NCBI GenBank assembly: GCA_013822425.1
Contig: PNKL01000014.1
Span: 1-61,284 of the forward strand
Source of the DNA: Gemmatimonas sp.
GTDB taxonomy: Bacteria > Gemmatimonadota > Gemmatimonadetes > Gemmatimonadales > Gemmatimonadaceae
Reading direction: 5' to 3'
DNA length: 61,284 bases
In this document: positions 8,735 through 60,886 of the stretch, piece after piece
Position numbering within the stretch: position 1 is the first letter of the stretch
Layout of the letters: every line of letters starts with the position of its first letter
Notes under the pieces: model-generated
Seen by the model: only the letters and a program-made list of their open reading frames with translations
What the model was told of the DNA's origin: nothing
Databases searched by the model: none
Made by a program: the position numbers and the translations under genes

Positions 8735-9550
8735 ATGACGGGTCGAGGCCATTTGGTGATCGGGGTCGGCGCGGCAGCTGCGGCGGGCATCCCGCTGGGG
8801 CTGCCACCGCTGGCGGTACTCGGCGCCGGCGCAGTGCTGTTGACGCGCCGGCGGTCCCTGCCCTTCACGATCGTCGCCATTGTGGTGATTGCCGCGGCCA
8901 ATGGCATGCCGCCCGGGGTACTCGGGACGTTCCTCACGGGAGCGCTGCTGGGGGCGATCGCGCCGGACATCGACCATGCGTACGGGCTCGTGGCGAGGGC
9001 GTCGGCGCGTGCGCTCGGCGCGGCGCTCGTTGCGCTCTCTTGCGCGGCGACCTTGTGGACTCCGAACGTGCCGGCGTGGGCCGCCGCGCTGCCTGGTGCG
9101 GTGGGGATCCTCGCGGTCCTGCGGCCGTCTTGGATGCCGCTGACGCTCTGGATCTACCGGGCGGTGCTCTCGAACCCGTTGACCTGGCTGTTCCTTGGGC
9201 GCGAGCGGATGTGCGCGCTCGTCACGCACCGGAAGCTGTCGCACACCGTTCTTGCGCTTCTGCTGTGGACTGCCGCGATGGTCGGGGGGCTCTGGGTCCT
9301 CGCGCCGTGGGTGCCGCCCGCGGTGTGGCCGTATCTCGGAGGCACGGTGTCGCTGGTCGAGCGAGTCGGCTTGGATGCCCGCACGGGTACGATGCTTCTG
9401 TGGGGCTACGCCGTCGCGGTCGGGTACACCTCGCACCTGCTTGGCGATGCCGCGACGGTGTCGCGCATTCAGCCGTGGCTGCCGTTTTCCGACGCGCGGT
9501 TCCAGGTGTTGCCGAGTCCATTGCTTCTGCGGACCGGAGGGCGTCACTGA
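8735..9550 (+). CDS. DUF457 (YdjM-type) membrane-bound metal-dependent hydrolase-like protein
   Basis: 271 aa. Polytopic membrane protein with the family's histidine/aspartate signature: GHLVIG at 5-10, PDIDH at 77-81, HRKLSHT from 165 and YTSHLLGD at 231-238, separated by hydrophobic helices (about 22-56, 62-76, 93-130, 172-195). In E. coli the relative YdjM is LexA-regulated. The physiological substrate is not established. ATG 8735 sits behind a TACCCT box. The stop overlaps the RecD2-like start (TGATG), tying this membrane protein to DNA repair or transfer helicases. Confidence 0.8.
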   Translation: MTGRGHLVIGVGAAAAAGIPLGLPPLAVLGAGAVLLTRRRSLPFTIVAIVVIAAANGMPPGVLGTFLTGALLGAIAPDIDHAYGLVARASARALGAALVALSCAATLWTPNVPAWAAALPGAVGILAVLRPSWMPLTLWIYRAVLSNPLTWLFLGRERMCALVTHRKLSHTVLALLLWTAAMVGGLWVLAPWVPPAVWPYLGGTVSLVERVGLDARTGTMLLWGYAVAVGYTSHLLGDAATVSRIQPWLPFSDARFQVLPSPLLLRTGGRH

Positions 9551-14393: not shown

Positions 14394-15146
14394 ATGGTGG
14401 TCTCCCCCGCCCGTCCAATGGCCGCCGGCAGCGTCGTGACGACGGTGCATCGGGGCGGGTTTGAGGCGCTCGAGTTGGAGATGCCGGCGGGCGCGGTGGT
14501 GTGGGCAGAACCAGGTGCCTTCGTATCGGGGTCGGGGGACCTCGACTTTGCCGTGACGGCCGCCGGATCCGTCCGTGCGATGATCGGCCGTTTGCTGAGC
14601 GGGGAGCGCCTCATGCGCCAACGCATCATGGCGCGCGGTCCGTCGCGCGTGGTCCTCGCGGGTGAGGGGCCAGGGGGCGTGCTCGAGATTCCGATGCGCA
14701 CCGGGGACGTGCTGCGGGCGACGCGGGGCGCGTTACTGGCCACACTCGGATCCGTGCAGCCACGGCTCTTCCTCGACCGCCATTTTGCCCGAGGCGTCTT
14801 CACGGGCATGGGCTGGGCCCAGCAGGAACTTCGGGGTGAAGGGACGGCCTTTCTGCACGCGATCGGTGCGATCCTGCGCTATGACCTGCGGCCGGGCGAG
14901 ACGATGGCCGTGCAACCCGACAGCATCGTTGCGTACGACGCATCGGCGCGTCTCGACCTGCGCCTGTGGTCGAATGTGGTTGCGGGGATGTTCGGTGGGG
15001 AGGGCTGGTTCTTTTGCCAGGTGACCGGGCCGGGACGTGTCTGGGTGCAGAGCCTGTCGGCGCACCGGGCGCTCCGCCAGCTCAGACGCACACGGCGGAC
15101 GTCGGCCCACTCCAGCCGGACGCAGATCGAGGAAGGCACCCGATGA
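14394..15146 (+). CDS. AIM24/TIGR00266-family protein
   Basis: 250 aa. Fits the AIM24 (DUF124) family of beta-sandwich proteins: an early EPGAFVSGSG segment (about 39-48), LLSGERLMRQ, a glycine-punctuated core (GPGGVLEIPMRTGDVLRAT, GMGWAQQELRGEGTAFLHA), LRPGETMAVQPDSIVAYD, and a terminal GGEGWFFCQVTGPGRVWVQS. The family is widespread in bacteria and its biochemical role is unsettled. An Arg-rich tail follows about residue 225. The stop overlaps the metalloprotease start (ATGA). Presence upstream of a T4SS operon suggests a membrane-related role, which is inference. Confidence 0.75.
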   Translation: MVVSPARPMAAGSVVTTVHRGGFEALELEMPAGAVVWAEPGAFVSGSGDLDFAVTAAGSVRAMIGRLLSGERLMRQRIMARGPSRVVLAGEGPGGVLEIPMRTGDVLRATRGALLATLGSVQPRLFLDRHFARGVFTGMGWAQQELRGEGTAFLHAIGAILRYDLRPGETMAVQPDSIVAYDASARLDLRLWSNVVAGMFGGEGWFFCQVTGPGRVWVQSLSAHRALRQLRRTRRTSAHSSRTQIEEGTR

Positions 15147-26571: not shown

Positions 26572-27255
26572 ATGGCTGACCCGACGGAGAAGGCTGACGC
26601 GCTCGTGGTGCCCAGTCATCGCGGGGATGGCACGGCGCGCTACCCAGTGATGTACGTGCACGTCGTGTGGATGTGGCGCATCGTGGCACTCCTCGTCGTG
26701 TGCCTGATCGTTCTGGTATGGACGAACTACCGGCAAACCCAGAAGTACGTGCCAGCGGTGCAGCTGGTGGACATGGCCTCGGGTCGAGCAGTGGCCGTGT
26801 GCAGTGCGACCGGGGGGGTTGCCGTTGGAGACAACAAGTACAACCTCGTCCAGGTGCAGTCGGTGGCGGGCGGGTTCCTCAGGGACCGGTACCAGTACCA
26901 GGAGTTCGGACTCAACGACCGGCTTGCCGAAGCATTCGCGCGCATGAGTGATTCCGCGAAGACGGTCGAGATCGAGCGCGTGCGCACGGCGGACCTGGCC
27001 ACCGTCGTTGTCGGTGCGGGCGCGAAGTATGACCTCATCCTGCTGGACGATTCGTGGCGGGTGGAGTCGTTCGGTTCGCGCTTCCTACGGGTCAGCGTGC
27101 GTGGGACGGTGCACATGACCAATGCGACGGTCTATCGGGAGCGTCCCTTCGAGAAACCCGTGTCCTTCACGCTGGTGTTGGAGCAGGTCGTGCCGAGCAA
27201 GATCTACCCGCTCGGGCTGCGAATCGTCTCCAACGACAGCAAGGACGTCCTCTGA
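26572..27255 (+). CDS. VirB8/TrbF-like inner-membrane protein
   Basis: 227 aa. A cytoplasmic N-terminus of about 30 residues, one transmembrane helix (about 37-54, WRIVALLVVCLIVLVW) and a periplasmic NTF2-like domain of about 170 residues, the standard VirB8/TrbF layout. Typical length is 220-240. VirB8 nucleates the T4SS inner-membrane complex. It is directly upstream of the VirB9-position gene (TGATG overlap), the canonical order. It begins behind a TACCCT box. Confidence 0.8.
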   Translation: MADPTEKADALVVPSHRGDGTARYPVMYVHVVWMWRIVALLVVCLIVLVWTNYRQTQKYVPAVQLVDMASGRAVAVCSATGGVAVGDNKYNLVQVQSVAGGFLRDRYQYQEFGLNDRLAEAFARMSDSAKTVEIERVRTADLATVVVGAGAKYDLILLDDSWRVESFGSRFLRVSVRGTVHMTNATVYRERPFEKPVSFTLVLEQVVPSKIYPLGLRIVSNDSKDVL

Positions 27256-28169
27256 TGCGCCGCGCGCTGCTGGGCCTTGGTCTCGCGTTGCTCGCGCGTC
27301 CCGCACTCGCGCAGTCACCAAGCCTGCCAGCGGAGGAAGGACGCATTCTCGGCGCGCCATCGCGAGCAGTGACGTATCTCGACATGAAGCCGGGTGAGGT
27401 GCAGACGGTCGCGATCCGACCCGGGGATTTCACCGTGATCGAGTTTCCGCTGCCCGTGTTCAACTACGGCATTGCGGCCAAGAGCTTGGTCACCGTCGAG
27501 AAGTTCGCGAACAAGATCATTCTGAAGGCCAAGGACTTCAGTGGCGAGACCCCGCTGGCCGTCTTCCTCGACGATTCCGCGTACACGACGGTACCGCTGC
27601 AGATCCGCATCGACTCCGCGAGCCATCCGCTGTACGTGCTGCGGTTCACGGATCCCGTCGCCGTGCACGTGCGTGCCACCGAACGGGCCACCGCGCAGCG
27701 CCTCGAAGCGATCGCGCGCGCGACGGAGGCCGAGCGGCTCGAACAACTCTTCCGGACCCGGCTCCTGCTCGGCGCGACGGAAGGCACGTTTGCGACGAAG
27801 GCAGAGCAGTCCGCGTTGAACGCCGTGGGCGATCGCGTGACGATGCAGCTCGTGAAGGTTGTTCGGCTGCACGTGACTTCGAGCGTCGAGCGGTTCTACC
27901 TCAGCTACCGCGTGGCGAATCTCACGCGGAAGCCGCTTGAGGCGTTGGAGTTTCGCGTGGCCATGGTGCGCCGCAAGGGCAAGCCGCTCGAGGTCTATGA
28001 TTTCGAAGACTCGCGCGGGGGGGTGACCGTGCCGTCCGGTCATGTGGCGGACGGATTGTTGGTGTTTGACGTGCCGGATACCTACCGGACGGATGACACG
28101 TTCCGGGTGACGCTTGGCGCCGACGGCGGATTGCGCGTCGTCGTGCAGTCCGCGCCCCGATTCCCGTGA
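27255..28169 (+). CDS. Exported protein in VirB9/TrbG position
   Basis: 304 aa, ATG 27255 overlapping the previous stop (TGATG). Signal peptide (MRRALLGLGLALLARPALA, then QSPSL). Mature part is beta-rich (VQTVAIRPGDFTVIEFPLP, FYLSYRVANLTRKPLEALEF), consistent with the VirB9/TrbG/TraK role of a periplasmic and outer-membrane-ring subunit between VirB8 and VirB10. The usual VirB9 C-terminal signature is not obvious, so the name rests on position, export and fold character. Confidence 0.65.
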   Translation: MRRALLGLGLALLARPALAQSPSLPAEEGRILGAPSRAVTYLDMKPGEVQTVAIRPGDFTVIEFPLPVFNYGIAAKSLVTVEKFANKIILKAKDFSGETPLAVFLDDSAYTTVPLQIRIDSASHPLYVLRFTDPVAVHVRATERATAQRLEAIARATEAERLEQLFRTRLLLGATEGTFATKAEQSALNAVGDRVTMQLVKVVRLHVTSSVERFYLSYRVANLTRKPLEALEFRVAMVRRKGKPLEVYDFEDSRGGVTVPSGHVADGLLVFDVPDTYRTDDTFRVTLGADGGLRVVVQSAPRFP

Positions 28170-28181
28170 GGCACGACTGAG

Positions 28182-29618
28182 ATGTCTGCGGAACTCGACC
28201 AGGACCTTGCGGCCCTCCGGGAAGCAACGAGCGGCGATCCCGGGTCTGCGGCGGCCGCGCCGCCACCTGATGCCGCGAATGCGCCTGATTTGCGTCCCGA
28301 TTCGCTGTCACAGGCCATGGGAATGCGGATCAACAAGAATGACCGCGCGTCAGCAGCCCCGCGGCGGTGGTGGGCGATCTTGGCCGTCGCGGGGTTGGCG
28401 TTGCTCGCTATTGTCTATGTACGCCGTTCGAACGCCGCCGCGCACGCCAAGTCCCAGCAGCAGTCGGCGGCACAGGAGGATTCGGCGCGCCAAGCCCGCG
28501 TGACGACGGCGTCCCCGACGAGCGCGCAGTCCATCGCGACCGTGACGGGCGTGTCGACCGCCGACGCCATGGCGGGTGCATCGACTGCCTCCGCGGGAGC
28601 GATGCCGACCAGCGCGCCTAGTGTGGGGCTGCCTGGAGCCCAAGGGACGCCTGCGATGTCGGCCGGTCGGTCGCTGGCGCCCGAGCCGGGACGGACCACG
28701 GGAGCCGGCGCACCGCCCGGTACAAATGCTGGTGCGCCGGCCGAGCGAGCACTGGCGGGCTCCTATCGACCAGTGCCGGTCGAGTCTCTGCCAAGACCCG
28801 TACCGATGCCCAGCGGACCCACACCCGCTGAGCTCGCGCGTCAGCGCAGCGACTCGATTGCGCGTGCACGTGACGCGGAGACGGCAGCGGAACGCGAACG
28901 ACTGCGGAAACGGCTCGAAGAGCCGGTCTTGGGCGAAGGTGCCACAGTGCGCCCATCCGCGCCTTCCGCAGGTGGCGGCGCGAAGGACGCGACGGGGGGC
29001 GCCAACGGCAGCGCGGTCGCGGGGGCATTCAGTGGCACGACGGGGGGGCTCAACGATCAGGTCGTACCAGGCACGAAGGTCGCCGCGACGCTGCTCCTTC
29101 CCTTCTCCTCCCTGACGGCGGATGTGGCCGCTGTGCAAGCGCGCGTGGATGCCAGCCTGCGCAGCAAGACGGGAGCGATCCTGGTCCCGCGCGGCTCGGT
29201 GGCGTTCTGCCGCGCTGACGTCCGGCAGGGCGCCGGCGGTACGGCGGCACGCGTCCTGCTCGCGTGCGAAACCTTTGTCGCACCGGACAAGCACACGATC
29301 TCCGGCGTGCGCGGACTGGCGATGAGCATGCAGACGAACCTCCTCGGCCTTGAAGGCGTCGTGAACCGACGCATGGTATCGCGCACGACGAAAGCCCTGG
29401 CGGCGGCGGCGCTCGGCATTGCCGCGACGAACGGGACGCAGCCGAGGTCCGCCTACCTGGCCCCGTCCGCTGGAGATATACTCCGTGCGCAATTCGGTGC
29501 GAACATGGTCCAGATGGCCCAAAGCCAGCTGGGGGGCACCGGCGGGGAGCTGCAGAATGAGGTCCGCCTTGCCGAAGGCGTGTCGTTCTATCTCGTCTTC
29601 GGCCTTCCGGGGCGCTGA
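28182..29618 (+). CDS. VirB10/TrbI-like channel protein
   Basis: 478 aa. Cytoplasmic N-terminus, one transmembrane helix (about 62-79, WWAILAVAGLALLAIVYV), a long Pro/Ser/Thr/Ala-rich periplasmic linker (about 80-280), then the conserved VirB10 beta-barrel domain (about 285-478: PGTKVAATLLLPF, TGAILVPRGSVAF, VLLACETFVAPDKH, AEGVSFYLVFGLP). VirB10 spans both membranes and senses the ATPases to open the outer-membrane pore. The linker is rich in low-complexity sequence, as is usual. TGATG overlap with the next gene. Confidence 0.88.
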   Translation: MSAELDQDLAALREATSGDPGSAAAAPPPDAANAPDLRPDSLSQAMGMRINKNDRASAAPRRWWAILAVAGLALLAIVYVRRSNAAAHAKSQQQSAAQEDSARQARVTTASPTSAQSIATVTGVSTADAMAGASTASAGAMPTSAPSVGLPGAQGTPAMSAGRSLAPEPGRTTGAGAPPGTNAGAPAERALAGSYRPVPVESLPRPVPMPSGPTPAELARQRSDSIARARDAETAAERERLRKRLEEPVLGEGATVRPSAPSAGGGAKDATGGANGSAVAGAFSGTTGGLNDQVVPGTKVAATLLLPFSSLTADVAAVQARVDASLRSKTGAILVPRGSVAFCRADVRQGAGGTAARVLLACETFVAPDKHTISGVRGLAMSMQTNLLGLEGVVNRRMVSRTTKALAAAALGIAATNGTQPRSAYLAPSAGDILRAQFGANMVQMAQSQLGGTGGELQNEVRLAEGVSFYLVFGLPGR

Positions 29619-31916: not shown

Positions 31917-32216
31917 ATGATGACCCAGACGCGGCATGAGGTGACGCTCCAGCGTGGTCGCGCACCGACCACGGCCGAGATTTTCGCGGCTGCGGAATGG
32001 CTCACGGGACTGCCGGTGTCGGCGCTGGGCGATGACTGGTCGTACATCCGAGACATGGCGGAGGACCTGATTTGGCGACTGCGTCGACTCCATCACGGGC
32101 TGACGATGGCCGTCGCGGTGCCGGCGGGACCGCCGCGAGGTGTCGTGTACCGTGATGTCGTGGGCACCGGGCGCTTGGTGATCGAGTTGGATGACCGTCC
32201 GCTGGGAGCGACCTGA
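31917..32216 (+). CDS. Small soluble protein of unknown function
   Basis: 99 aa. Helical N-terminal half (ARAPTTAEIFAAAEWLTGL) and a beta-like C-terminal half (VYRDVVGTGRLVIELDDRP). No motif recognised. It starts a run of four small genes that close the operon, joined to the next by TGATG. Confidence 0.55.
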   Translation: MMTQTRHEVTLQRGRAPTTAEIFAAAEWLTGLPVSALGDDWSYIRDMAEDLIWRLRRLHHGLTMAVAVPAGPPRGVVYRDVVGTGRLVIELDDRPLGAT

Positions 32217-32470
32217 TGCTGATCGATCAATGGCTCGAGCGCGCCGAGCGCGTGCTCCCAACCGTACTGCTTGGGCTCGGGGTCGTGTGGGGCGTGTGGT
32301 GTATCGGAGGCGCGGTGTTTGTGATCGGGCGGCCGATGCAGGCGCTGTATGCGATGTTCTTCGGCGTGGCGGGTTCGTCGCTGCTGGCGAGCAGTGCCAT
32401 CGTGGTCCGCTACTTGGGACCGCTCGTACGTGGATTGCACGCGTTGCTCACTTCTGAGGGGAATCGGTGA
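32216..32470 (+). CDS. Small two-helix membrane protein
   Basis: 84 aa, ATG 32216 (TGATG overlap). Two hydrophobic helices (about 16-38 VLPTVLLGLGVVWGVWCIGG and 45-66 LYAMFFGVAGSSLLASSAIV). No family recognised. Probably an accessory membrane component of the secretion system or an entry-exclusion-type protein, but this is only position-based. Confidence 0.55.
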   Translation: MLIDQWLERAERVLPTVLLGLGVVWGVWCIGGAVFVIGRPMQALYAMFFGVAGSSLLASSAIVVRYLGPLVRGLHALLTSEGNR

Positions 32471-33534: not shown

Positions 33535-33557
33535 GTCTCCCGGGTGATGCTAGGCGT

Positions 33558-33609
33558 CACAAACCGAGCGCGCCTCCTCAGGTCCTTGAGGAGGCGCGCT
33601 CGGTTTGTG
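33558..33609. terminator. Perfect 23-bp hairpin, bidirectional terminator
   Basis: Bases 33558-33580 and 33587-33609 are perfect reverse complements around the 6-nt loop GGTCCT. The stem starts with CACAAACCGAG and, on the other side, ends in GGTTTGTG, giving T-rich flanks in both directions. It separates the convergent T4SS operon and the minus-strand coupling-protein operon, so it should stop both. Confidence 0.85.
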
Positions 33610-33617
33610 TGGTCGTG

Positions 33618-34340
33618 CTAAGCCGTGAGGACGTGCGGTGCGGAGCGACTCTGGAGGGTTGCGAGATCCATGGCGCGCTGCTTCGCGAGCGGCGGCAGGT
33701 CGTTGAACCACCGATCGGGATGGAGCAGACGATCCTGTGCCCTGTCGTACTGCCACTGGCCCGCCTGGTCGAGTTGGAGGAGGATGTCACCGCGCGGCGT
33801 TGTGGGCGTTCGCTGCCGCTCGGCGCGTCGCATGTCGATGGCGGCCGCCGCCTGGAGCAGCAGGAGATCGGCCAGCAGCTCGCCCATTTCCACGAGCGGA
33901 AGGGCGTTGGTTGCCGGAGTCTCGGTGAGGACGTCGGCCCGCGCTTTCAAGTGTACGGCGAAGGCCGCCGGCAGTTCCGTCGTTGCAAGGAATTGCGCCG
34001 GCCATCGCATCGCCCAGGCGAGGAGCGCATCACCACCGGGCGTCGTGCGCGCACGTTGGAGCCCCTGCAAGACCGGAATCGGCAGACAGTACCCTCCACA
34101 CGTCTTCCAATAGAACGCCGCGACGGCATCATCGAGCGCGACCAGCATCACTTCGTCGGTTCCGATGCAACGCGTGACAATCTCCATGAAGACTTGCAGC
34201 GGGTTGTAGCACGTCCACAGGCGCGCGCAGAAATATGCCGGCGCATCGACCATGTGCACGAGGCGGCCGTCATCGTCCGTCCGCGAAGCGCCTGGCGCGG
34301 CGTCCGTCGACCAACAGATCAGGCGAGGCACGGCGGTCAT
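33618..34340 (-). CDS. Protein of unknown function co-transcribed with coupling protein
   Basis: 240 aa, start overlapping the stop of the upstream coupling-protein gene by 4 bp. Soluble, no signal peptide. N-terminal half has several cysteines (YFCARLWTCYNP, TRCIGTDE, KTCGGYCLP); the C-terminal half is helical and charged (AAAIDMRRAERQRT). No family recognised. Its tight link to the VirD4-type gene suggests an adaptor or accessory of the coupling protein. Confidence 0.6.
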   Translation of the reverse strand: MTAVPRLICWSTDAAPGASRTDDDGRLVHMVDAPAYFCARLWTCYNPLQVFMEIVTRCIGTDEVMLVALDDAVAAFYWKTCGGYCLPIPVLQGLQRARTTPGGDALLAWAMRWPAQFLATTELPAAFAVHLKARADVLTETPATNALPLVEMGELLADLLLLQAAAAIDMRRAERQRTPTTPRGDILLQLDQAGQWQYDRAQDRLLHPDRWFNDLPPLAKQRAMDLATLQSRSAPHVLTA

Positions 34341-36922
34341 CGCGGAGCCTCCAGGAGTCCCTGCGCGTCAAGCACGCGCAGCAGCGCCAGTCGGTCGGCA
34401 ATGGAGGTGATAGGCGCACCGGCCGGATCCAGCGCCGGCGGTTCGGTCGCATCGAAATCGAGGTCGCAGAGCGTCTTGAGGTCGCGCGAGTAGCGCGGCA
34501 GCGGCCCGACTGGCGCGACACTTGAGCGCGCACCGCCGGTGGGCAGGGCGACAAGCCCCGGGACAGCGTTCGCGGCCAAGGGTTTGGGCACCACCTCAGG
34601 CCCGACCGACGGCCCCGCGATCCCGACTGCGGGAACCCCGAGGGGCGCCGTCGCGCCCTGTGCCCTGTCCGTCACGGCCGCAGGTGGCGGAGCGGAGGAA
34701 CGGGGCGTCTGGGCGCCACTCTTCCTCAGTTGTTCGTCGGGATTGGGCTCCGACACGCCGATTGCCTTGAGGTCGAGCACCGGGGCTTGCAACGCATCCG
34801 GAGTGATCGGGCGCACCGAGAGCATGAAGTCGAGCGAATCCGCGAACGGATCGCGCTTCTCGTCCATACCGAACTGGCGGCGCGTGAGGTACGTCGTGTC
34901 GGAACGCGTTGGCTCCAGGCGGCCCCGCAGGCGCTCGATCCACACGCGAAGCCGCGTCGTGAGGGGCGCGTCGGGCGGCATCGCCGGCTCGCGGCGCATC
35001 TTCAACAGCCCGCGAATGAACGGGTCGTTCCAAAACGGTACCGGGATGAACGGGAACGCCGCGGGCGCGTTGATCTGGAGGGCCACGTCCCGGCGCGGGC
35101 GGCCGTTGATGCGCATCTTGTTGATGTCGGCGCCCGACATCAACGGCACTTCCTCAAGACTCTCGTTGATCGTATGCGTACCGTCCTTGCCCGAGGTTCG
35201 GCTCTTCTGTCGGCGGACGAGGCGCACCTTGCCCATGATCGTCTCCCCGACGTACTGCGTGGTCTCGGGGTGAGTAGCCGGCAGGACAACTTGCGTGTGG
35301 GCGTTGGCTTCAATCGTCGTGACGGTCTCGCCGTACATCGCTTTCATCTTGCCGCGGTCCTGAATCAGAATGTCGATCCCGACGTTGAACGATCGGAGGG
35401 TCGACATCGGTCCGTCCGGATTGCGCAAGCCGAGGTTGGCGAACTCGTCGAGGTGCAGGTAGACCGGATGGAACGCAATGCCCGGTTCGTCTCGGGCGAC
35501 GCGGGCCGGTCGGCCTTCGAGCAGCTTGAGAAGCTGTTTCGTCAGCAGCGAGCCGACGAACCCTGCACCGGTCTGCATCTCCTCGAGTGGTGCGCCGATG
35601 AGCAGCAGGCTGGGCTCGCGGATGAGTGCTTCGATGTCCAGCTCGTCCCGGCTAAACGCCGCCGCCACGGCGGGAAACGCGAAGGGCGCGAGCTTGTTGG
35701 CGAGTTCGTTGACGGTGCTGTTCTGTGTTTCCGGTGCGCTTTGCAGGAAATCGTTGATGTTGATCAGCGACTGCCGGAGCGCGTCGGTCCGTGCGCGCAG
35801 ACGGCGCTGGAGGGCGGTTCGCAATTGCTCGCGGACGTCTGACGCGATGGGGCCAGGAAGCGGGGCGTCACCCTGGCGCATCGCGCGGACGACGCGCTGG
35901 ATTTCGAAGCCCATGCGGTCGAGCAGTTGCAGGGCGTCATGCAGATCGGGATCGCGCACAACGCGCCCGTCCACTCGGCTCCCGCGCAGCCGGTCCGCCG
36001 GTGCGGTCAGGACGCGTTCGACCGCGGCGAGTACAGCCTCGGTGGTCGGGAGCGACTTCTGGGCGTGACTATACGCCTCGAGCACTGCCTTGCCTCCGAG
36101 GCCTACGAGCTGCTGAATGCACGGGAGATTGCAGTAGCGGCGCGGCCACATGTCGGCCAGATCCATCAGACTCCGCAGGACTTTTTGGGCCTGCCCCTCG
36201 AAGAACTGCGCCGTCGAGTCCTTGCTGACCTGCTCGGCGGTGGGGATGTATTCAATGATCTGCTGCGCGAGTCGCGTGCGTTCTGCGTCGGAGGCACGGT
36301 ACAACGGCTCGTAGGCGAGCGTGGCGTGCGGGAGCCAAGGATCGAAGAAGAGGACGCGCTTGCCGTTTTCCGCGTACGGCTGCGAGAACACCCGAAAGAG
36401 TTCCGGCGTCTTCACGTCGATCACGACGTCGGAGCAGTTGATCAGCGTGTCGTAGGCCAGCCACGGATAGATGAACCCGGTGGACTTGCCCCGTCCCGTG
36501 GGGCCTGTGACAATGATATGCTCGACGCGTTTCTGTCGAGACAGGAAGATCGGCCGACTGAACCACTCGATCCACACGCGCCGGGCTTCGGCGAGTGGTA
36601 CCCAGGACGACATCGGAATCGGGATGAACAGCGGGAGCGTGCGACCGAGTGGCGCCATGCCCTGACGGATGGCCTCGTCGGTCGTCGCTGTCGTGAAGCG
36701 GTTGTCGCTGCCGTCGGTCGGGCGGCGTGCGAGCCACTCGGAGCGCGGCTGCCAATCGCGAGGATAGAACGCGCCCTTGTGCTTGCGCCGCTGCCAGGCG
36801 AACGCCGAGGCGACTCCGAAACTGCCGAGCAGCGCGCCGCCGATCGCAGCGGTCGCCAGGACGGTGCTGCTCAGAAGCAGGGTGGCCGCGTGCTCGAGAA
36901 ACCCGGACGAGGAGAGCGCCAT
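34337..36922 (-). CDS. VirD4/TraG-type coupling ATPase (first)
   Basis: 861 aa from ATG 36922. I chose this over ATG 36958 because TACTCT ends six bases upstream of 36922 and lies inside the longer frame. The N-terminal membrane segment is about 13-44. Walker A is GPTGRGKST at about 140-148 (numbered from this start), followed by VVIDVKTPELF and LFFDPWLP. Walker B is LHLDEFANLG, Asp492/Glu493. Further TraG-type features are RDRGKMKAMYGE and LPATHPETTQYVGETIMG. The C-terminal about 150 residues are Pro/Ala-rich. It should deliver the DNA-relaxase substrate to the T4SS. It is divergent from a second coupling-type ATPase. Confidence 0.88.
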   Translation of the reverse strand: MALSSSGFLEHAATLLLSSTVLATAAIGGALLGSFGVASAFAWQRRKHKGAFYPRDWQPRSEWLARRPTDGSDNRFTTATTDEAIRQGMAPLGRTLPLFIPIPMSSWVPLAEARRVWIEWFSRPIFLSRQKRVEHIIVTGPTGRGKSTGFIYPWLAYDTLINCSDVVIDVKTPELFRVFSQPYAENGKRVLFFDPWLPHATLAYEPLYRASDAERTRLAQQIIEYIPTAEQVSKDSTAQFFEGQAQKVLRSLMDLADMWPRRYCNLPCIQQLVGLGGKAVLEAYSHAQKSLPTTEAVLAAVERVLTAPADRLRGSRVDGRVVRDPDLHDALQLLDRMGFEIQRVVRAMRQGDAPLPGPIASDVREQLRTALQRRLRARTDALRQSLININDFLQSAPETQNSTVNELANKLAPFAFPAVAAAFSRDELDIEALIREPSLLLIGAPLEEMQTGAGFVGSLLTKQLLKLLEGRPARVARDEPGIAFHPVYLHLDEFANLGLRNPDGPMSTLRSFNVGIDILIQDRGKMKAMYGETVTTIEANAHTQVVLPATHPETTQYVGETIMGKVRLVRRQKSRTSGKDGTHTINESLEEVPLMSGADINKMRINGRPRRDVALQINAPAAFPFIPVPFWNDPFIRGLLKMRREPAMPPDAPLTTRLRVWIERLRGRLEPTRSDTTYLTRRQFGMDEKRDPFADSLDFMLSVRPITPDALQAPVLDLKAIGVSEPNPDEQLRKSGAQTPRSSAPPPAAVTDRAQGATAPLGVPAVGIAGPSVGPEVVPKPLAANAVPGLVALPTGGARSSVAPVGPLPRYSRDLKTLCDLDFDATEPPALDPAGAPITSIADRLALLRVLDAQGLLEAPR

Positions 36923-36928
36923 ACCGTC

Positions 36929-36934
36929 AGAGTA
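36929..36934 (-). promoter_or_regulatory. Leaderless-type -10 box (TACTCT on minus strand)
   Basis: On the minus strand TACTCT ends six bases before ATG 36922. It forms half of a divergent promoter pair with TATCCT at 36973. Confidence 0.5.
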
Positions 36935-36972
36935 GGGCGCCGGCGGTTGGACGGTCATCCCGTGCCGCGCAC

Positions 36973-36984: not shown

Positions 36985-39789
36985 ATGGAGATCACGAAGC
37001 CGACGCTCCTGGGAGGCGTCGAAACCCGTGCGGGTGAAAAGCAGAAACGTCGCGATCGCCTCAAGGAGCTGCGGCGCTACTTGATCGTCGCCCTGGCGAG
37101 TGTCGTGTTCGGGCTGGTGGTGATCTATGCGCGTCGTGAGAGCAGCGCCCCGGTAAGCTTCGTGCGCTGGCTCGCGACGGTGTTTCGGGACCCGGTGTCC
37201 TTGCTGGCCACGCTTGGCGCGATCAGCGCGGTCACTGCGGCGCTGTACGGCTACGCGCATCGCAACGACCCGTACCCGGTCGTGCTACCGCCCTACCCGC
37301 CGGATCCGGACCTGCGTTTCTGCGACGACCTGCTCCTCGGTCGCGGCTGGACCTGGGACGGGAAGATGCCGGGCGCGGCGCAGTTGTCGACGGATCCCTG
37401 CGAAGCGTCGCCGTTCGTGACCATTCCCGCTCAGGGTATCGTTGGCAACTTGCGCGCCATTGGCGCTATTGGGTCTCGCAAGACGGAAGGCGTCATCAAG
37501 AACCTCGTGTGGCAGATTCTGCAGAAGTTCCCCGCCCCGGGCGCCGATGATGCAGCGGTGCCGCTTGACGCGCCCTCGGTTGAGGAACGCGCTCGGCTCC
37601 ACCGTGAAGCTCGGCCTGGCATGTTCCTTATTGATGCGAAGGGCAACCTGTCAGAGTGGGTGATGAAGGCGGCAGCAGCGGCCGGCCGAGGGGACGACGT
37701 GATCGTCCTGCGCCCGGGCGGCCCGTGGACGTACAACCCGCTCCTAATCACCGAAAACCCGACGGTGTTGGCGTCACAGATCGTGGAAGGCGCGCGCGTC
37801 GTGGCTGAGGGAGAGACGGGTCCTGACTTCTACCGCCTCACGATGTCGGAGTGGCTGGCGAACGCCATCCAGCTCATCCTCGCGGTGGATCCGTCTCAGC
37901 TGACCATCATGCGATTGCTGGAACTCGCTCGAGACGAGAGTCTGCGGGCGCGCTACGTCGATCAGGCCGAGGCGTTGGCCGCGCTCAATGCGCGCGAGGA
38001 CGCAGCGGTCCAACGGCGCGGCCGGGCCGTCACGGGCTACCGCATTGACCCGAACGTGGTGTCGTATTTCCGCGACTTCGATCGCGACACCAGCGAGGCA
38101 TCGAAGCTGCGTACGATGGTGCTCAGCGGCATCAAAAGCCATTTCGCGTTGTTCGTGGAACGCGAACTGCGCGAGTTTCTGTCCCCGGACGGCAAACCGA
38201 CCTTCGCGGGCTTCGCGCAGTGCTTCAACGAAGGCAAGATCGTCGTGCTACGGCTGCCCATGGACCAGTACGACCAGGTGGGCCGTACGTTGGGCATTCT
38301 GACGTCGCTCGACTTCCAGCAGGTGGCCCGTCGACGGCTGAACGATCGCGGGATGAACCGCGAGCGGCTCGTCTATCTGGTCCTGGATGAGATGCACTAC
38401 TACGTCACCGGCTCGCTCGCGACCTTCCTCAGCGTGAGCCGGGAATCGCGGGTTCCCGCGATCGGTGCGCACCAGTCTCTCGGACAGACCGGCTCCGACC
38501 AGGCCATTGCGCGCGTCTTGAACGACAACTTCCGCACCAATCTCGTGATGACCGCGCCGAACGCGGAGGCGGGTGCGGTGCTCGCTTCCATGATTGGCGA
38601 GCGCGAGGTGCTCCGGACGAGCGTGCACGAAACGACGAGCGTCGAGGGCGGCGTGCACCTGATGGGCCGCACGGAAATGCTCGGACAGAACGTCGGGGTC
38701 CAGGTGGCGACGGAGGCGTATTTCCCCGCCGACGAACTGGTGCACCTGCCCAGCGCCGAGGCGATCGCCATGGTCTTTGATGGGGACGGCAACCGACGGC
38801 CACGGCGCATGCGCACCCCGCTGTTCTACGAGGAACATCTCGAGCGGATCGCCCCGTTCGATCACCTGCGGCTGACGCCGCAGCCGCCGCATCCGGTCAT
38901 CATGGTGTCCGGGGATCGGATGTCGCTGCCGTATTTCACGAAGTTCGTGACCAGCACCTATTTCCTGATCGCGAGCGCGATCGCCGATGCCGAAGGACGG
39001 CTGCGAGCCCTGCGCTTCACGTCAGAACACGGAACAGCCATCCTGCCGCTCGAGTTCCTGGATGATGCGGAGTCGCAGTTGAGCCTCGGACTGCAGCGGG
39101 AGGCGTGCATTGTGGCGTTTCCCCATAGCCATGCGGCGCTCGCCGTCTTCTGGGGCCTGCTCGAGCTGCCCCCCCGTCACCCGCTGTTTCTCGATGCGGC
39201 GGCAACCGCGGCGCGGATGGCTGACGGGCTGCCGGCGTCGCTCGAGAGTCTCGCCGCCAAGCACGGATGGGATCCCGCCGTGCTCGGGAGCGCCGGTGCC
39301 TGGGAGCGAATCGATGGACTCTCGCCCGCAGGCACCCAGCTGGTGGACCGCGAGGCGCGTGCACTCGTCGCGCTCTACCGCTCGGTGGCCGAAGCCATTG
39401 ATGCTGAGGATCCGGCATTGCTCGACCTGGTCACCCTGCGGTTTGGCAACGACGCCGAGGCTGCCGTCGGTGCTCTCTCCTCCCCTATCACCGCGCTGCG
39501 GAACCGCGTGTTCGCGGCTGATGGCGCGTTGTCCGAGGTAACGCTTGCCGATCTCGACGCCTTCCCATTCCACGCGACCCTCACTCGCCCCCGTTCGGTA
39601 TCCGCCGGCGCTGGATCGGCGGCATCGGGAAGTAGCCCTCTTGGTCGCGACGTTTCAGACGATGACGACGGCGCAGGTGGCGTCGATGCGGACGGGGATT
39701 CCGCGGGCGGCGTTGGGTCACGCCGAACTGGCGCAGGCGACTCGGCTGCTGCGCGAGCTAACGACGAAGAGAGTCCTTTCAACGATTGA
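36985..39789 (+). CDS. Second coupling-protein-type ATPase (TraD/TraG-like)
   Basis: 934 aa from ATG 36985; the upstream open frame is the shadow of the opposite gene. Two transmembrane segments (about 34-50 and 71-91), then an ATPase domain with Walker A GAIGSRKT at 160-167 (a basic residue replaces the usual Gly before Lys), FLIDAKGNLSEWV, and Walker B VYLVLDEMHYY with Asp468/Glu469, followed by SRESRVPAIGAHQSLGQ. The C-terminus is a long helical region and an acidic tail (SDDDDGAGGVDADGD, ending DEESPFND). Resembles VirD4/TraD proteins with a TraM-recognition-type domain. A second coupling ATPase could handle a different substrate. The last 245 bp overlap the next gene. Confidence 0.82.
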   Translation: MEITKPTLLGGVETRAGEKQKRRDRLKELRRYLIVALASVVFGLVVIYARRESSAPVSFVRWLATVFRDPVSLLATLGAISAVTAALYGYAHRNDPYPVVLPPYPPDPDLRFCDDLLLGRGWTWDGKMPGAAQLSTDPCEASPFVTIPAQGIVGNLRAIGAIGSRKTEGVIKNLVWQILQKFPAPGADDAAVPLDAPSVEERARLHREARPGMFLIDAKGNLSEWVMKAAAAAGRGDDVIVLRPGGPWTYNPLLITENPTVLASQIVEGARVVAEGETGPDFYRLTMSEWLANAIQLILAVDPSQLTIMRLLELARDESLRARYVDQAEALAALNAREDAAVQRRGRAVTGYRIDPNVVSYFRDFDRDTSEASKLRTMVLSGIKSHFALFVERELREFLSPDGKPTFAGFAQCFNEGKIVVLRLPMDQYDQVGRTLGILTSLDFQQVARRRLNDRGMNRERLVYLVLDEMHYYVTGSLATFLSVSRESRVPAIGAHQSLGQTGSDQAIARVLNDNFRTNLVMTAPNAEAGAVLASMIGEREVLRTSVHETTSVEGGVHLMGRTEMLGQNVGVQVATEAYFPADELVHLPSAEAIAMVFDGDGNRRPRRMRTPLFYEEHLERIAPFDHLRLTPQPPHPVIMVSGDRMSLPYFTKFVTSTYFLIASAIADAEGRLRALRFTSEHGTAILPLEFLDDAESQLSLGLQREACIVAFPHSHAALAVFWGLLELPPRHPLFLDAAATAARMADGLPASLESLAAKHGWDPAVLGSAGAWERIDGLSPAGTQLVDREARALVALYRSVAEAIDAEDPALLDLVTLRFGNDAEAAVGALSSPITALRNRVFAADGALSEVTLADLDAFPFHATLTRPRSVSAGAGSAASGSSPLGRDVSDDDDGAGGVDADGDSAGGVGSRRTGAGDSAAARANDEESPFND

Positions 39790-40549
39790 CGTTGCGCCAA
39801 AAGCTGCCATCGGCGAGCCCGCGCACGCTGAATATCGGCTCACCGAGCGCGGCCGGGAGGCGCTCCGCTGCCTCGGAAGCATCCACCGCCACCTCCCGCA
39901 CTTCGCCGCTGGCCCTCTCACCCTACCGGTGGCCTGCGCTGCGCTCGGTGCCGGGATGGACCGTCCAAGCGCCCGACGGGCACGGGCCAAGCTGCAGAAG
40001 CTCATCGACAAGGGCCTGATCGAGAAGACGTCCCTCCGGACCCCGTGGCTCCGGGCATGGCAGATGACCGGAGCCATGATGCGGCGGTTCCAGGTGCCGA
40101 CGGTCCGGCCGCCCCGCCTAGACCGAATGCACCATCACCTCGCGGTGGTGGACTTCATCGGTGACCTCCTTGCCGCGGCGGGTCCGGGTTGGTCGGTCGC
40201 ACGCTTCGCGGGCGACGAGGACCTGCGTTCCCGTGCGTTTCGGCGAGCATTCCGCGAGGGGCGTGGACATGGGCAAGCGTTGGCCTTGGATGCCGAAGTG
40301 ATCGTACGGACGTCGCAGGGTAGCCACGTTGCTCTCGAGGTGGAGTACATCTCGGCGGCGTATCGCAACGCCGACATCGCACAGAAGGCCCGGGCGGTGC
40401 CGGCTCACCGCGTCTTCGTCGCCTCGGACGCGCGTATCGCGAGGCGGGCCCATCGCGTCTTGAAGCACCCGGTGTGGCGCTCGGATCGCGTCAATGCAGC
40501 AGACGCACACGCTATTCTGTCGAAAGGAACCCCTGTCTCCCTGCCATGA
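39545..40549 (+). CDS. Winged-helix protein, replication-relaxation family-like (first)
   Basis: 334 aa from TTG 39545, chosen because GAGG lies six bases upstream and because the next ATG (39660) would cut the DNA-binding domain. Winged-helix region at about 28-120 (RHREVALLVATFQTMTTAQV, ATRLLRELTTKRVL, EYRLTERGREALR). After it comes a domain with HHLAVVDFIGDLL, DLRSRAFRRAFREG, ALDAEVIVRT and VALEVEYISA, reminiscent of the replication-relaxation (Replic_Relax) family implicated in plasmid replication and DNA relaxation. With no canonical relaxase in the window, this and the next gene are candidates for oriT or oriV processing. It overlaps the ATPase gene by 245 bp in another frame. Confidence 0.65.
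   Translation: MPISTPSHSTRPSLAPVRYPPALDRRHREVALLVATFQTMTTAQVASMRTGIPRAALGHAELAQATRLLRELTTKRVLSTIDVAPKAAIGEPAHAEYRLTERGREALRCLGSIHRHLPHFAAGPLTLPVACAALGAGMDRPSARRARAKLQKLIDKGLIEKTSLRTPWLRAWQMTGAMMRRFQVPTVRPPRLDRMHHHLAVVDFIGDLLAAAGPGWSVARFAGDEDLRSRAFRRAFREGRGHGQALALDAEVIVRTSQGSHVALEVEYISAAYRNADIAQKARAVPAHRVFVASDARIARRAHRVLKHPVWRSDRVNAADAHAILSKGTPVSLP
40495..40518 (+). promoter_or_regulatory. Accessory-type promoter element (variant), before second winged-helix gene
   Basis: TGCAG at 40495 and TATTCT at 40513-40518 with the same 18-nt register as the accessory-region family. AAAGGA and ATG 40546 follow 27 nt later. It lies inside the end of the preceding gene. Confidence 0.4.
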
Positions 40550-41463
40550 CATCACCCGTCGTTCCGCTGGATGAACCGTCCGAGTTGCCGCCCGCCTACC
40601 TCCCGGACGGTGGCGAGGCGTTGCCAAAACACCCCATGCGGGTACGCCATGTCCGGTCACTTCTCCGATTCGTGGACTACTTCCGCGTCGTCACGCCGTT
40701 CCAGATTTGGCGGGAGTACGACGCGGCGGTGGGCAAGCACTTCCGGTCGACGCACAAGAACATCGAGGCGTTGGTGCGGCGTCGGTTGCTCAAGCCGGTT
40801 TCCCTTGCGGCGCCTGGCATGGTGGGACGTCCCCGGAACGGCTTCACCTTGACGGTCGAAGGCGGCGACGTTCTCGGAATCGGCGACCGCATCCGGCGGC
40901 GGGTTCCGCTGAAGGCCCGGAGGGCGGCCCTCTTCGCTCAACAGACGGAAATGCTCCAGACGCGCTTCGCCGAAGGTTGGCGCCTCGCGATGAGCAAGCG
41001 CGCGGCGCCCTACGTGAAAGCGGCGGGACAGGCGCGGTTTGGGACGGTTCCGCGCTCGGAAGGCGAGCACGCACGGCGGGAACTGCTGCGCCAAGGCCTT
41101 GAGGCGTTGGACCGAGTAAGCCTGAATATCTTGTATCGCAACAACGGTTCGCGGCGCGACCCAACGGAGATTCGTATCATTCTCGCGGCTGAATCCATGC
41201 TGGATTTCCGGCGCGTTCTGCGCGGAATCGACCCGATCTTCCACCACATTGGCCCGAGTGTCGAGGTCGTACTGGCCGAAAGCCGAATGGTCTCGATGGC
41301 TGTCGAGGAGGTCCGCACCTTCTTCGCCGGCGCAGGAATTCAGCCGGACGTTGCCGTGGTCTCCCCGTTTTTCCTCAACAGCGGGTGCGTCCCCCACGCG
41401 GCGGACGCTCGCAAACGGCTCGCACGGCGTGTTGCTGGATGGGAGCCCTGGCGTTCGCTCTGA
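40546..41463 (+). CDS. Winged-helix protein, replication-relaxation family-like (second)
   Basis: 305 aa from ATG 40546 (ATGA overlap with the previous stop). N-terminal winged helix at about 28-115 (RHVRSLLRFVDYFRVVTPFQ, STHKNIEALVRRRLLKPV, NGFTLTVEGGDVLG), then a mixed alpha/beta domain (PTEIRIILAAESMLDFR, SVEVVLAESRMVSMAVEEV). The layout parallels the preceding gene, suggesting a divergent pair from one ancestor. It borders the 1.4-kb non-coding region, as expected for an origin-binding protein. Family assignment is tentative. Confidence 0.6.
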   Translation: MTSPVVPLDEPSELPPAYLPDGGEALPKHPMRVRHVRSLLRFVDYFRVVTPFQIWREYDAAVGKHFRSTHKNIEALVRRRLLKPVSLAAPGMVGRPRNGFTLTVEGGDVLGIGDRIRRRVPLKARRAALFAQQTEMLQTRFAEGWRLAMSKRAAPYVKAAGQARFGTVPRSEGEHARRELLRQGLEALDRVSLNILYRNNGSRRDPTEIRIILAAESMLDFRRVLRGIDPIFHHIGPSVEVVLAESRMVSMAVEEVRTFFAGAGIQPDVAVVSPFFLNSGCVPHAADARKRLARRVAGWEPWRSL

Positions 41464-41573
41464 CGGGTTTGGGCCCTTACGGAATGAGCCCGCCGAATCT
41501 GGTAGCGCGCCAGGCGTCAGCCGTCGAGCGGGCGCAAACCCGTCAATTTTCATCCCTCCAAGCGGCGTGCCTG

Positions 41574-45310: not shown

Positions 45311-45640
45311 ATGACGACGATCCAGTGGCTCACCCCGGGCAGCGCCGCGCCGACGCGCGGTGAGCTGCAGTCCTTTGACGCGTTCGAGGTGTCGCCGGTG
45401 CTGGTCGACGCTGACGGGGTGTCGGAGCGGGTCGATGGGCCGACGCTTCCCGATTTGAAGGTCGGCGAGTCGCTGATCTTCACGGCGTTCGGTCACCGCC
45501 CGCACCGCGGGGTTGAGGCGCTTGCCGATTTCGAGACGGAAAGCGAGGCGGTCGAGGTTGCCGCAGCTCTCGATGCCTTCCGCCTCTCCGACGGTCCGGC
45601 CACGGAGCTGTTTGGCCCTGCGGGTGCACCAACGGCGTGA
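45311..45640 (+). CDS. Small soluble protein of unknown function
   Basis: 109 aa from ATG 45311 with GAGAGG upstream. Beta-rich middle (VSPVLVDADGVSERVDGP, GESLIFTAFGHRP) and acidic C-terminal helix (FETESEAVEVAAALDAFRL). No motif recognised. Single-gene unit with its own promoter. No gene is supported between its stop and the operator at 45883. Confidence 0.6.
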   Translation: MTTIQWLTPGSAAPTRGELQSFDAFEVSPVLVDADGVSERVDGPTLPDLKVGESLIFTAFGHRPHRGVEALADFETESEAVEVAAALDAFRLSDGPATELFGPAGAPTA

Positions 45641-45931: not shown

Positions 45932-46855
45932 GTGCCACACCATGTCTCGAAGGATCCGAAAACCGCCAAGCGCACCGGCGCCACGACCATCCCGGCGTCG
46001 GCGGCGGGTTCCACGGGCGCCAAGCTGGTAGGGCGCGCATCCGGCGGGTCCGCTGCCGGGCGTCCCTCGGCTCAACGGCCCGAAGCCGCTGCGCCGCGAG
46101 GTACCTACGTGAGGGATGCCGTGCGGAGAGTGCAAGCGGACGATGCCGAGAGGAAGGGCGTCGCGCACATCTTGGAGAATCTGCGAGCCGCGCGTGAGGA
46201 AGCAGCCAGCGCGGCCGCCGACTTGGCGGGCGCGACACGGGCGGTGGCGACGCAGGCGGCGCGAGCATCGGAGGCCTCCGCGACGCTCGTGGCTGCCTTG
46301 GCGGCGACCGCACTCCCGGACGGTGCCGAAGCGGTAGGACTGGGCGCGATTCCCGCTGCCGCCCCGCCCACGGTTCCTGCGGCGGCGATACCGGAAGGCG
46401 TGCGTGCTGCCGACCGACTTCCCGTCCAAGCGCGAGAGGTGGCGAGCGTGCTTGGGCTCGAAGCCGCGGACCCCCGGGGTCTCAACTGGCTCAACCTCGC
46501 AGAGACGGTGCGTGCCGGCCGCTTACCAACCAGCGCGGTGGTTGCCGTGGTCACGGCGGCGGCGGAGCGGTCGCAGCAGACCGTCGTGCGTCGCACGATC
46601 CTCTCCGATGCCTCGTGGAAGCGGCGGCGGGACACGGTGTCCGCTGCGGTCGGCGACCGGGTGCTTCGGCTGGCGACGGTGGTGGCGTTGGCGCGCTATG
46701 TCTGGCACGGGGATGTCGAGGGTGCCCGGGAGTTCCTGATGCACCCGAGCCGTCAGCTCGGTGGCCATACCCCGCTGCAGTGCAGCATCGACACCGCCGG
46801 CGTCCGCGCGGTGGAAGACCTGCTGCTTGACATTCTCTACGAGTTCGCAGCATGA
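45932..46855 (+). CDS. Xre/MbcA/ParS-type (DUF2384) antitoxin with long N-terminal extension
   Basis: 307 aa from GTG 45932, GGAGGG four bases upstream. The C-terminal toxin-binding domain (about 240-307) is clear: DRVLRLATVVALARYVW, EGAREFLMHPSRQLGGHTPL and AVEDLLLDILYEF match the DUF2384 pattern (vvalA..vfgd...A..WL..p...LGG.tPl......G...V..lL..i.yG). An alanine-rich, probably coiled-coil stretch occupies about 60-130, and the first 50 residues are low complexity. Typical family members have about 120-170 residues, so the extension is unusual. The stop overlaps the RES toxin (ATGA). It should neutralise the toxin and repress at the palindrome upstream. Confidence 0.85.
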   Translation: MPHHVSKDPKTAKRTGATTIPASAAGSTGAKLVGRASGGSAAGRPSAQRPEAAAPRGTYVRDAVRRVQADDAERKGVAHILENLRAAREEAASAAADLAGATRAVATQAARASEASATLVAALAATALPDGAEAVGLGAIPAAAPPTVPAAAIPEGVRAADRLPVQAREVASVLGLEAADPRGLNWLNLAETVRAGRLPTSAVVAVVTAAAERSQQTVVRRTILSDASWKRRRDTVSAAVGDRVLRLATVVALARYVWHGDVEGAREFLMHPSRQLGGHTPLQCSIDTAGVRAVEDLLLDILYEFAA

Positions 46856-47343
46856 AGCGCGGGGCGCACGCGACGGAGCGTCTGTGTTACCGCCTTACCG
46901 ATCCCGCATTCACCGGCCTTGATGGCGTCGGCGGGCGCAGGAAGGCGGGCCGGTGGCACGTGGTGGGCGAACCGGTCGTGTATTGCGGGCGGTCACAGCC
47001 CGGTGCCGTGCTGGAGTCCCTGGCGCGGTTGCAGGGACTTGGCAGGCTCCCGCCCCGCGCGGTACTTCGGATCCACATCCCGGCTGGGGTGGTGATCGAA
47101 GCGATCGAGGCCACCGACGTGCCGGGCTGGGATTACGATGACTACCAGGCCAGCCAGGCGTACGGCAGTGCATGGCTGCGCGAAGGACGCTCCGTCGCGC
47201 TCCTCGTCCCCGCGGTGACCTCCAAGCCGTGGGGGGAGAACGTCCTCCTCAATCCGGCGCATCCCGACATGGCGCGCCTCACGGTCGACGTCGTGCCGTC
47301 GTTCGCGTGGGACGGACGGCTCCAGCCACTCGGTGCGCCGTAG
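46852..47343 (+). CDS. RES-domain toxin
   Basis: 163 aa. RES-family toxins (MbcT, ParT-type) act on NAD+ or ADP-ribosylate targets and arrest growth. Conserved elements: Arg14 (CYRLTD), GRW at 33-35 within RKAGRWHVVGEPVVYCGRS, Tyr44, Glu55 (VLESLARL), Trp108, Ser114 (GRSVALLVPAV) and the terminal ENVLLNPAHPDM with Asn130, Asn134 and His137. Length matches the family. ATG overlaps the antitoxin stop, antitoxin first, as in RES-Xre operons. The likely role is stabilisation of the element or defence. Confidence 0.88.
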   Translation: MKRGAHATERLCYRLTDPAFTGLDGVGGRRKAGRWHVVGEPVVYCGRSQPGAVLESLARLQGLGRLPPRAVLRIHIPAGVVIEAIEATDVPGWDYDDYQASQAYGSAWLREGRSVALLVPAVTSKPWGENVLLNPAHPDMARLTVDVVPSFAWDGRLQPLGAP

Positions 47344-60797: not shown

Positions 60798-60886
60798 ACA
60801 GAGGTGTGGCCGAGTGGCTTAAGGCGCCTGACTGATAATCGGGTGGGCCCGCAAGGGCTCCGTGGGTTCGAATCCCACCATCTGTC
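60798..60886 (+). tRNA. Class II (Ser/Leu-like) tRNA gene with GAU (Ile) anticodon, irregular acceptor stem
   Basis: D arm GCC (60809-60811)/GGC (60823-60825) with GAGTGGC; anticodon stem CCTGA (60827-60831)/TCGGG (60839-60843), loop CTGATAA, anticodon GAT at 60834-60836. The long variable arm GGGCCC-GCAA-GGGCTC (60845-60860) has a GNRA-type tetraloop. T arm is GTGGG-TTCGAAT-CCCAC (60862-60878). Acceptor: ACAGA (60798-60802) pairs with TCTGT (60881-60885), and TG with CA, leaving GG bulged; the other register has one mismatch. No CCA encoded. The long variable arm implies Ser-type charging, which conflicts with the Ile anticodon. It may be a pseudogene or an unusual decoder. Confidence 0.75.

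Follow-up and report, generated by a model that had tools for sequence, protein, structure and literature searches.

A candidate non-HUH relaxase and its tandem partner gene in a type IV secretion element of Gemmatimonas

Which protein would process DNA for transfer in an element that encodes a type IV secretion system (T4SS) and two coupling proteins, and in which the tested relaxase families are absent? This question is raised by contig PNKL01000014.1 of Gemmatimonas sp. (assembly GCA_013822425.1; 3.57 Mb in 206 contigs). The whole contig (C14), 61,284 bases long, is the window analyzed here. It is by their relaxases that conjugative elements are called and typed. In the window, the second coupling-protein gene is followed by two tandem genes, here called P1 and P2. 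Judged from sequence, the most likely reading is that P1 is a distant PD-(D/E)XK-type relaxase resembling the MOBC class and that P2 is its DNA-binding partner. That P1 is the relaxase of this element, non-HUH and of the type of a family named famA below, with P2 as DNA-binding partner, is given an even chance.

Two tandem genes behind a coupling-protein gene

The T4SS and both coupling proteins had been proposed in a sequence-only reading of the window, and all were confirmed. CP1 (34337–36958, minus strand) is a VirD4/TraG-like coupling protein (PF02534, E 3.2e-24) with a canonical P-loop, GPTGRGKS. CP2 (36985–39789, plus strand) is TrwB-like (PF10412, E 3.3e-5). The Walker A motif of CP2 is degenerate (GAIGSRKT, with R replacing the second G), whereas the canonical GxxxxGKS is kept in CP1 and in the homologous coupling protein of genome G216 (GAPGTGKS). 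Therefore, the ATPase work may rest with CP1.

P1 (39545–40549, plus strand; 334 amino acids) has a TTG start inside the 3′ end of CP2, and the two genes overlap out of frame by 245 nt (39545–39789). Within this overlap the G+C content of third codon positions (GC3) is 0.756 in the P1 frame versus 0.767 elsewhere in P1, and 0.573 in the CP2 frame versus 0.812 elsewhere in CP2; the trend in G216 is the same. Because GC3 is kept in P1 and falls in CP2, with G216 in agreement, and because CP2 and the G216 coupling protein have similar C-terminal tails of the PF(N/D) type (SPFND and NPFDI), the long overlap is probably real. P2 (40546–41463, plus strand; 305 amino acids) begins with an ATG that overlaps the P1 stop codon by 4 nt (ATGA), and it is probably translated together with P1. 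A GTG at 40474 was passed over as the P2 start, the ATG being the better one. The limits first given for the pair, 39545 and 41463, were correct, as the former is the start of P1 and the latter the end of P2.

P1 has a C-terminal PD-(D/E)XK-like motif, H196..D249..E265-x-E267..Y273R274..K281, and is predicted to contain one or more N-terminal winged-helix regions. P2 would combine a winged helix with an alpha/beta domain that has no acidic/lysine motif. The winged-helix assignment of the sequence-only reading is backed by helix-turn-helix (HTH)-type Pfam matches in P1 (residues 66–113 and 117–161) and by low-confidence models, the Pfam matches all being below threshold. The two genes had also been taken for a divergent pair, but as paralogues they were not detectable (hhalign E 0.13).

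The order coupling protein, P1, P2 recurs in two other metagenome-assembled genomes (MAGs) of the same family, G216 and G314 (contigs PMEM01000004.1 and PLEG01000335.1), the related loci belonging to Gemmatimonadetes MAGs. There, a coupling-protein gene is followed by a 327-amino-acid gene with a 239-nt overlap (14858–15096 in locus L023), and then by a 411-amino-acid gene. In the related element of MAG fen_1247 the coupling protein, P1, and P2 stand in this order, with the overlap of ~240 nt, which is retained in two distant elements. P1 and its G216 homologue (P1′) reach 26% in the alignment, and BLASTP gives E 3e-5 for them in the C-terminal motif. For P2 and its positional counterpart (L023 15850–17085), the BLASTP E of 0.23 is not significant. 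An early alignment of P1 and P1′ with a two-residue gap was replaced by an ungapped version in which E267 is the conserved acid, and the joint alignment described below supports the ungapped version. Since the order recurs in two other MAGs, the tandem pair is more than chance, and its genes are real. The window and G216 elements also share VirB4, a gene in the VirB9 position, AIM24, and a RecD2-like gene. When 395 genomes of the phylum were searched with CP2, matches were found in 15, its own genome included, and among these G216 and G314 had the top scores and a long open frame.

Absence of tested relaxases and a family sharing the P1 motif

The claim that the window holds no canonical relaxase was borne out. 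A Pfam scan of 53 of its 55 predicted genes (not covered: 32216–32470 and 45311–45640) found no relaxase family, and nothing from MOBT, MOBV, MOBB, or MOBL, four families for which no genome-wide search was made. Across the whole genome there was no match to PF03432, PF08751, or PF03389, taken for the HUH relaxases MOBP, MOBF, and MOBQ, nor to PF07514, taken for MOBH; each of these models was matched in at least one control genome. PF13814 was likewise without a member genome-wide; no control genome matched this model, but it found members elsewhere in the phylum. As the contig ends where the window ends, the region beyond is covered by the genome-wide searches, which found no standard relaxase of these five families outside the window. 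PF03432, PF08751, PF03389, and PF07514 also had no match in the genomes G216, G314, and G187.

The T4SS element of G187 carries two winged-helix-like genes, of 311 and 329 amino acids, before virD4. Two families are named here from this locus: famA, from the 311-amino-acid protein, and famB, from its 329-amino-acid partner. Searched against 39 genomes with a VirB4 match, the 311-amino-acid protein had matches at E ≤ 0.1 in 23, and below 1e-7 in 20. Across nine rows the invariant residues of famA are H142 D143, E172, P217 D218, G228, E236, Y242, and K250, and the motif is H..E..PD..E..Y(R)..K. The family matches no Pfam family above cut-off.

After removal of the L148 and L150 rows from the famA set, a profile of its C-terminal domain was built without P1, and P1 ranked first of 833 open reading frames (ORFs; E 0.0033). 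A larger set held 6,172 non-redundant ORFs, of which 33 scored above 20 bits and were taken as famA. Among the 6,139 that remain, P1 stands at the top, with 12.9 bits versus 8.1 for the next, a score reached by none of 2000 shuffles of P1. In a joint alignment of 11 rows that includes P1 and P1′, E236, Y242, and K250 of famA are invariant. Moreover, a P1 profile run over the 395 genomes gave weak matches, among them a famA member in G223 (E 0.0535). A regular expression for the motif matched 42 of 7345 ORFs, the distinct matches listed being without exception famA or P1; because it was written with P1 in view, the fit of P1 to it is no evidence. Membership of P1 in famA is likely, not proven, and by sequence P1 appears closer to this unnamed Gemmatimonadota family than to PF13814.

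Further genomic analysis addressed the context of the two families. famB occurs in 20 loci searched, and famA is present in all 20, next to genes of a VirB/D4 T4SS. Two loci, L187 and L196, have famA but no famB, and both end at contig edges. The usual order is virB8, famB, virD4, virB11, a small gene, ardC, famA, a small membrane protein, an HTH gene, and an integrase. famB thus immediately precedes virD4, whereas famA is found close to the integrase end or, elsewhere, next to famB, and no remaining gene in this order resembles a standard relaxase. Neither family was seen in 11 other VirB4-bearing loci, several of which are ended early by contig edges. The likeness to the window lies in the D..E..Y(R)..K motif and T4SS context of P1 and in the presence of a second winged-helix gene, to which P2 may correspond. 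The difference is that famA and famB are apart in most elements (famB before virD4, famA near the integrase) and adjacent in the G187 loci only. No P1 homologue was found in 98 other close relatives. A plasmid search with P1, P0001, P0002, and the famA and famB proteins of locus L158 gave no match, nor did viral contigs searched with the coupling protein, P1, and famA.

Likeness to MOBC relaxases and rival explanations

As a relaxase, P1 would bind the origin of transfer (oriT) of the element through its winged helix and nick one strand at a PD-(D/E)XK-type site formed by D249, E267, and perhaps E265 and K281. P2, with its winged helix and degenerate alpha/beta domain, would aid binding to oriT or docking on the coupling protein encoded just upstream, and the complex would be passed to CP2, or to CP1. 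P1 would be built like MOBC relaxases such as pAD1 TraX and yet belong to a separate unnamed family, famA. If so, it acts at the same step of the pathway as the HUH relaxases (MOBP, MOBF, MOBQ) and MOBH, from which it differs in that their sequences are matched nowhere in the genome.

Excerpts of one study relate MOBC relaxases to PD-(D/E)XK endonucleases and describe the N-terminus of TraX as a winged helix (PMC12857230). The same excerpts report that the five direct repeats bound by TraX lie away from nic and that TraX nicks oriT, with no covalent intermediate detected (PMC12857230). P1 resembles the MOBC proteins (pAD1 TraX, CloDF13 MobC; PF13814/NF041423) in its predicted architecture, which places a PD-(D/E)XK-like domain behind a winged helix and has no HUH motif, and in the location of its gene, which lies beside CP2 as theirs lie near a coupling-protein gene. 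A TraX-type protein of pTEF1, annotated as replication-relaxation in a record typed MOBC, is likewise encoded near a coupling-protein gene; it contains HHL..D and D..E-x-E..RY, and P1 contains HHL..D and D..E-x-E..YR..K. Replic_Relax genes also follow a coupling-protein gene in a Manganitrophus plasmid, with a primase gene between, and in two contigs from Gemmatimonadota, one of which, in G223, shows an overlap of 4 nt. The window differs from MOBC systems in having two genes in tandem, and from TraX in that no array of five direct repeats was found beside P1 or P2.

Two side observations concern such genes. In two Gemmatimonadota MAGs, the gene for a long Replic_Relax-type protein (L092 492–2132 and L094 359–2236) overlaps or adjoins a coupling-protein-like gene at the end of the latter. 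The Candidatus Manganitrophus plasmid CP114554.1 (L065 14749–19131) encodes a coupling protein, a primase, Replic_Relax, and an F-type T4SS, and is typed as non-mobilizable.

A number of results weigh against P1 being a MOBC-like relaxase of the famA type. The PF13814 profile has no match to P1 at E < 1 or to P1′ at E < 5, hhalign of P1 against the pTEF1 TraX-type MOBC alignment gives E 0.59 and a probability of 0.1%, and famA has no significant profile link to MOBC or PF13814. Since neither Pfam nor hhalign detects homology, MOBC membership is not claimed for P1, and its candidacy as a PF13814 member was rejected. What stands of the replication-relaxation likeness first proposed is the architecture, the motif, and the place beside a coupling-protein gene; profile support for it failed. 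Neither P1 nor famA matches the sequences of solved structures in the PDB, AlphaFold models of P1 and P2 from two-row alignments have a pLDDT of 39, and P1′ has no equivalent of E265 and hence one acidic residue fewer. P1′ fits famA weakly, as 9 of 2000 shuffles match its score. With the full-length famA profile P1 scores 11.2 bits, second to another ORF at 17.4, and 1 of 2000 shuffles equals it. A two-row P1/P1′ profile run on 2337 T4SS-locus ORFs places an unrelated 110-amino-acid ORF first (E 0.00054) and the first famA member second (E 0.0063). P2, though it occupies the place of famB, has no famB profile match and was rejected as a famB member by sequence. Finally, PF03432 relaxases are present in 18 of the 19 other famA genomes, mostly on other contigs, and therefore famA might have another function in those genomes; in G112:C58, where famA only is seen, a PF03432 gene lies ~7 kb from it. 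Going by the positions listed, no contig with both famA and famB has a PF03432 gene within 20 kb of famA. G223 has a sub-threshold PF03432 match ~10 kb from virB4, and the PF03432 gene at L197:16554–17861 looks by eye like the relaxase of a mobilizable element with a MobC-like neighbour.

These results leave room for other explanations. A serious, if unlikely, one takes P1 and P2 for ordinary winged-helix transcription regulators that control the transfer genes; the T4SS would then be a protein-exporting or decayed “MOBless” system, or would be served by a relaxase in trans. Regulators would agree with the sub-threshold HTH-type matches, the only ones that Pfam gives, and with a P2 that has no catalytic motif, and excerpts of a 2011 survey record many T4SS without a nearby relaxase, with protein secretion favoured for many (PMC3158045). 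However, the overlap with a coupling-protein gene and the invariant E..Y..K motif would be unexpected in regulators, and none of the tested relaxase families is in the genome to act in trans. It is distinctly less probable that P1 is a PD-(D/E)XK-type nuclease with some other role (anti-host, repair, or excision) and not an oriT nickase. This would suit the famA genes found between ardC and the integrase module in most famA genomes, as well as the PF03432 relaxases in 18 of 19 of those genomes; against it, the gene adjoins coupling-protein or virD4 genes in G187 and G216/G314 as well as here in the window, and no other relaxase-like gene is present in the T4SS elements inspected.

Two further candidates lie away from the pair. 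A MOBT, MOBV, MOBB, or MOBL relaxase on another contig is very improbable: the genome-wide profile searches left out these four families and the contig ends with the window, but none was found among the window genes scanned, and G216 and G314, with their related elements, are also without the four profiles searched there. Hardly credible, in turn, is a MOBM-type (TcpM-like) relaxase in the tyrosine recombinase at 1550–2815 (plus strand; Phage_integrase, E 5.8e-14), with P1 and P2 as accessories. MOBM relaxases are indeed tyrosine recombinases, according to excerpts of the study already cited (PMC12857230), but the tyrosine recombinase of an integrated element is normally its integrase, and this one lies ~37 kb from P1 and P2, near the contig end. 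As a formal alternative it nevertheless makes it too strong to call the pair the only processing candidates, as the sequence-only reading had done; the pair remains the best candidate. The literature search turned up no account of a pair like this one from Gemmatimonadota, most subscription papers and preprints being beyond its reach.

Inverted repeats, the wider element, and implications

The gap between famB and virD4 contains a covarying inverted repeat, GAGCGACCCC...GGGGTCGCTC, in 18 of the 20 loci (L158, 11370–11789, and 17 others), with loops of 39–75 nt; in L193 and L194 none was detected. Its inner arms are constant (GCGACC...GGTCGC) and its outer arms vary together. In 17 distinct arm pairs, bases are complementary at 101 of 119 outer positions, versus 64 on average and 87 at most in 20,000 re-pairings, a count that overstates independence because related sequences share history. 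At four outer positions there are two or three pair types, with all rows paired. This repeat is oriT-like and a candidate oriT; it could also be a dyad bound by a protein, or an RNA hairpin, ahead of virD4. It is possible, although on the doubtful side, that a two-protein non-HUH system, with famA/P1 as nickase and famB/P2 as partner, replaces the canonical relaxase in widespread integrative and conjugative elements of Gemmatimonadota and that the repeat before virD4 is their oriT.

The window has an inverted repeat of its own at the P2 stop codon (41461–41545), with 16-nt arms, 15 of 16 positions complementary, 53 nt apart; among 200 dinucleotide shuffles of the 1.4-kb gap, one did as well. 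It differs in sequence from the famB-virD4 repeat, and the window shows no enrichment of the GAGCGACCCCCC core. The repeat at the P2 stop may be an oriT-type element or a terminator. Downstream of the P2 counterpart, L023 carries iteron-like CCTAAGT repeats (17224–17310) and a 103-bp tandem repeat (18109–18376), in a 2-kb stretch where no gene is called with confidence.

The following T4SS genes of the window lie on the plus strand. They encode a VirB4/TraC-like ATPase (16884–19751), a VirB8-like protein (26572–27255; sub-threshold, E 0.027), a protein that is VirB9 by position (27255–28169; homologue L126:2688–3881 in the G216 element, E 2.9e-18), and a VirB10/TrbI-like protein (28182–29618; E 9.8e-10). 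A RecD2-like helicase gene (9550–11916, plus strand) has a homologue in the G216 element, and ArdC-like and UvrD-like genes are also present. In both related elements an AIM24 gene adjoins the T4SS pilin/VirB4 genes (window 14418–15146; L126 17060–17941). Other features are a toxin pair at 46130–47343 (an Xre/MbcA/ParS-like antitoxin and a RES-domain toxin), a tRNA-Ile (GAT) at 60800–60886, ~400 bases from the contig end, and, between convergent genes, an inverted repeat at 33557–33610 whose ~19-nt arms match almost perfectly, probably a bidirectional terminator.

The 2011 survey did not settle whether unknown relaxases serve some of the MOBless T4SS (PMC3158045). If the two-protein system proposed here is real, it would account for part of the T4SS known as MOBless. 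Should famA and P1 prove to be relaxases, tests could be aimed at a specific protein, its motif, and a candidate oriT, and Gemmatimonadota elements that profile typing files as non-mobilizable or as protein secretion systems would be conjugative.

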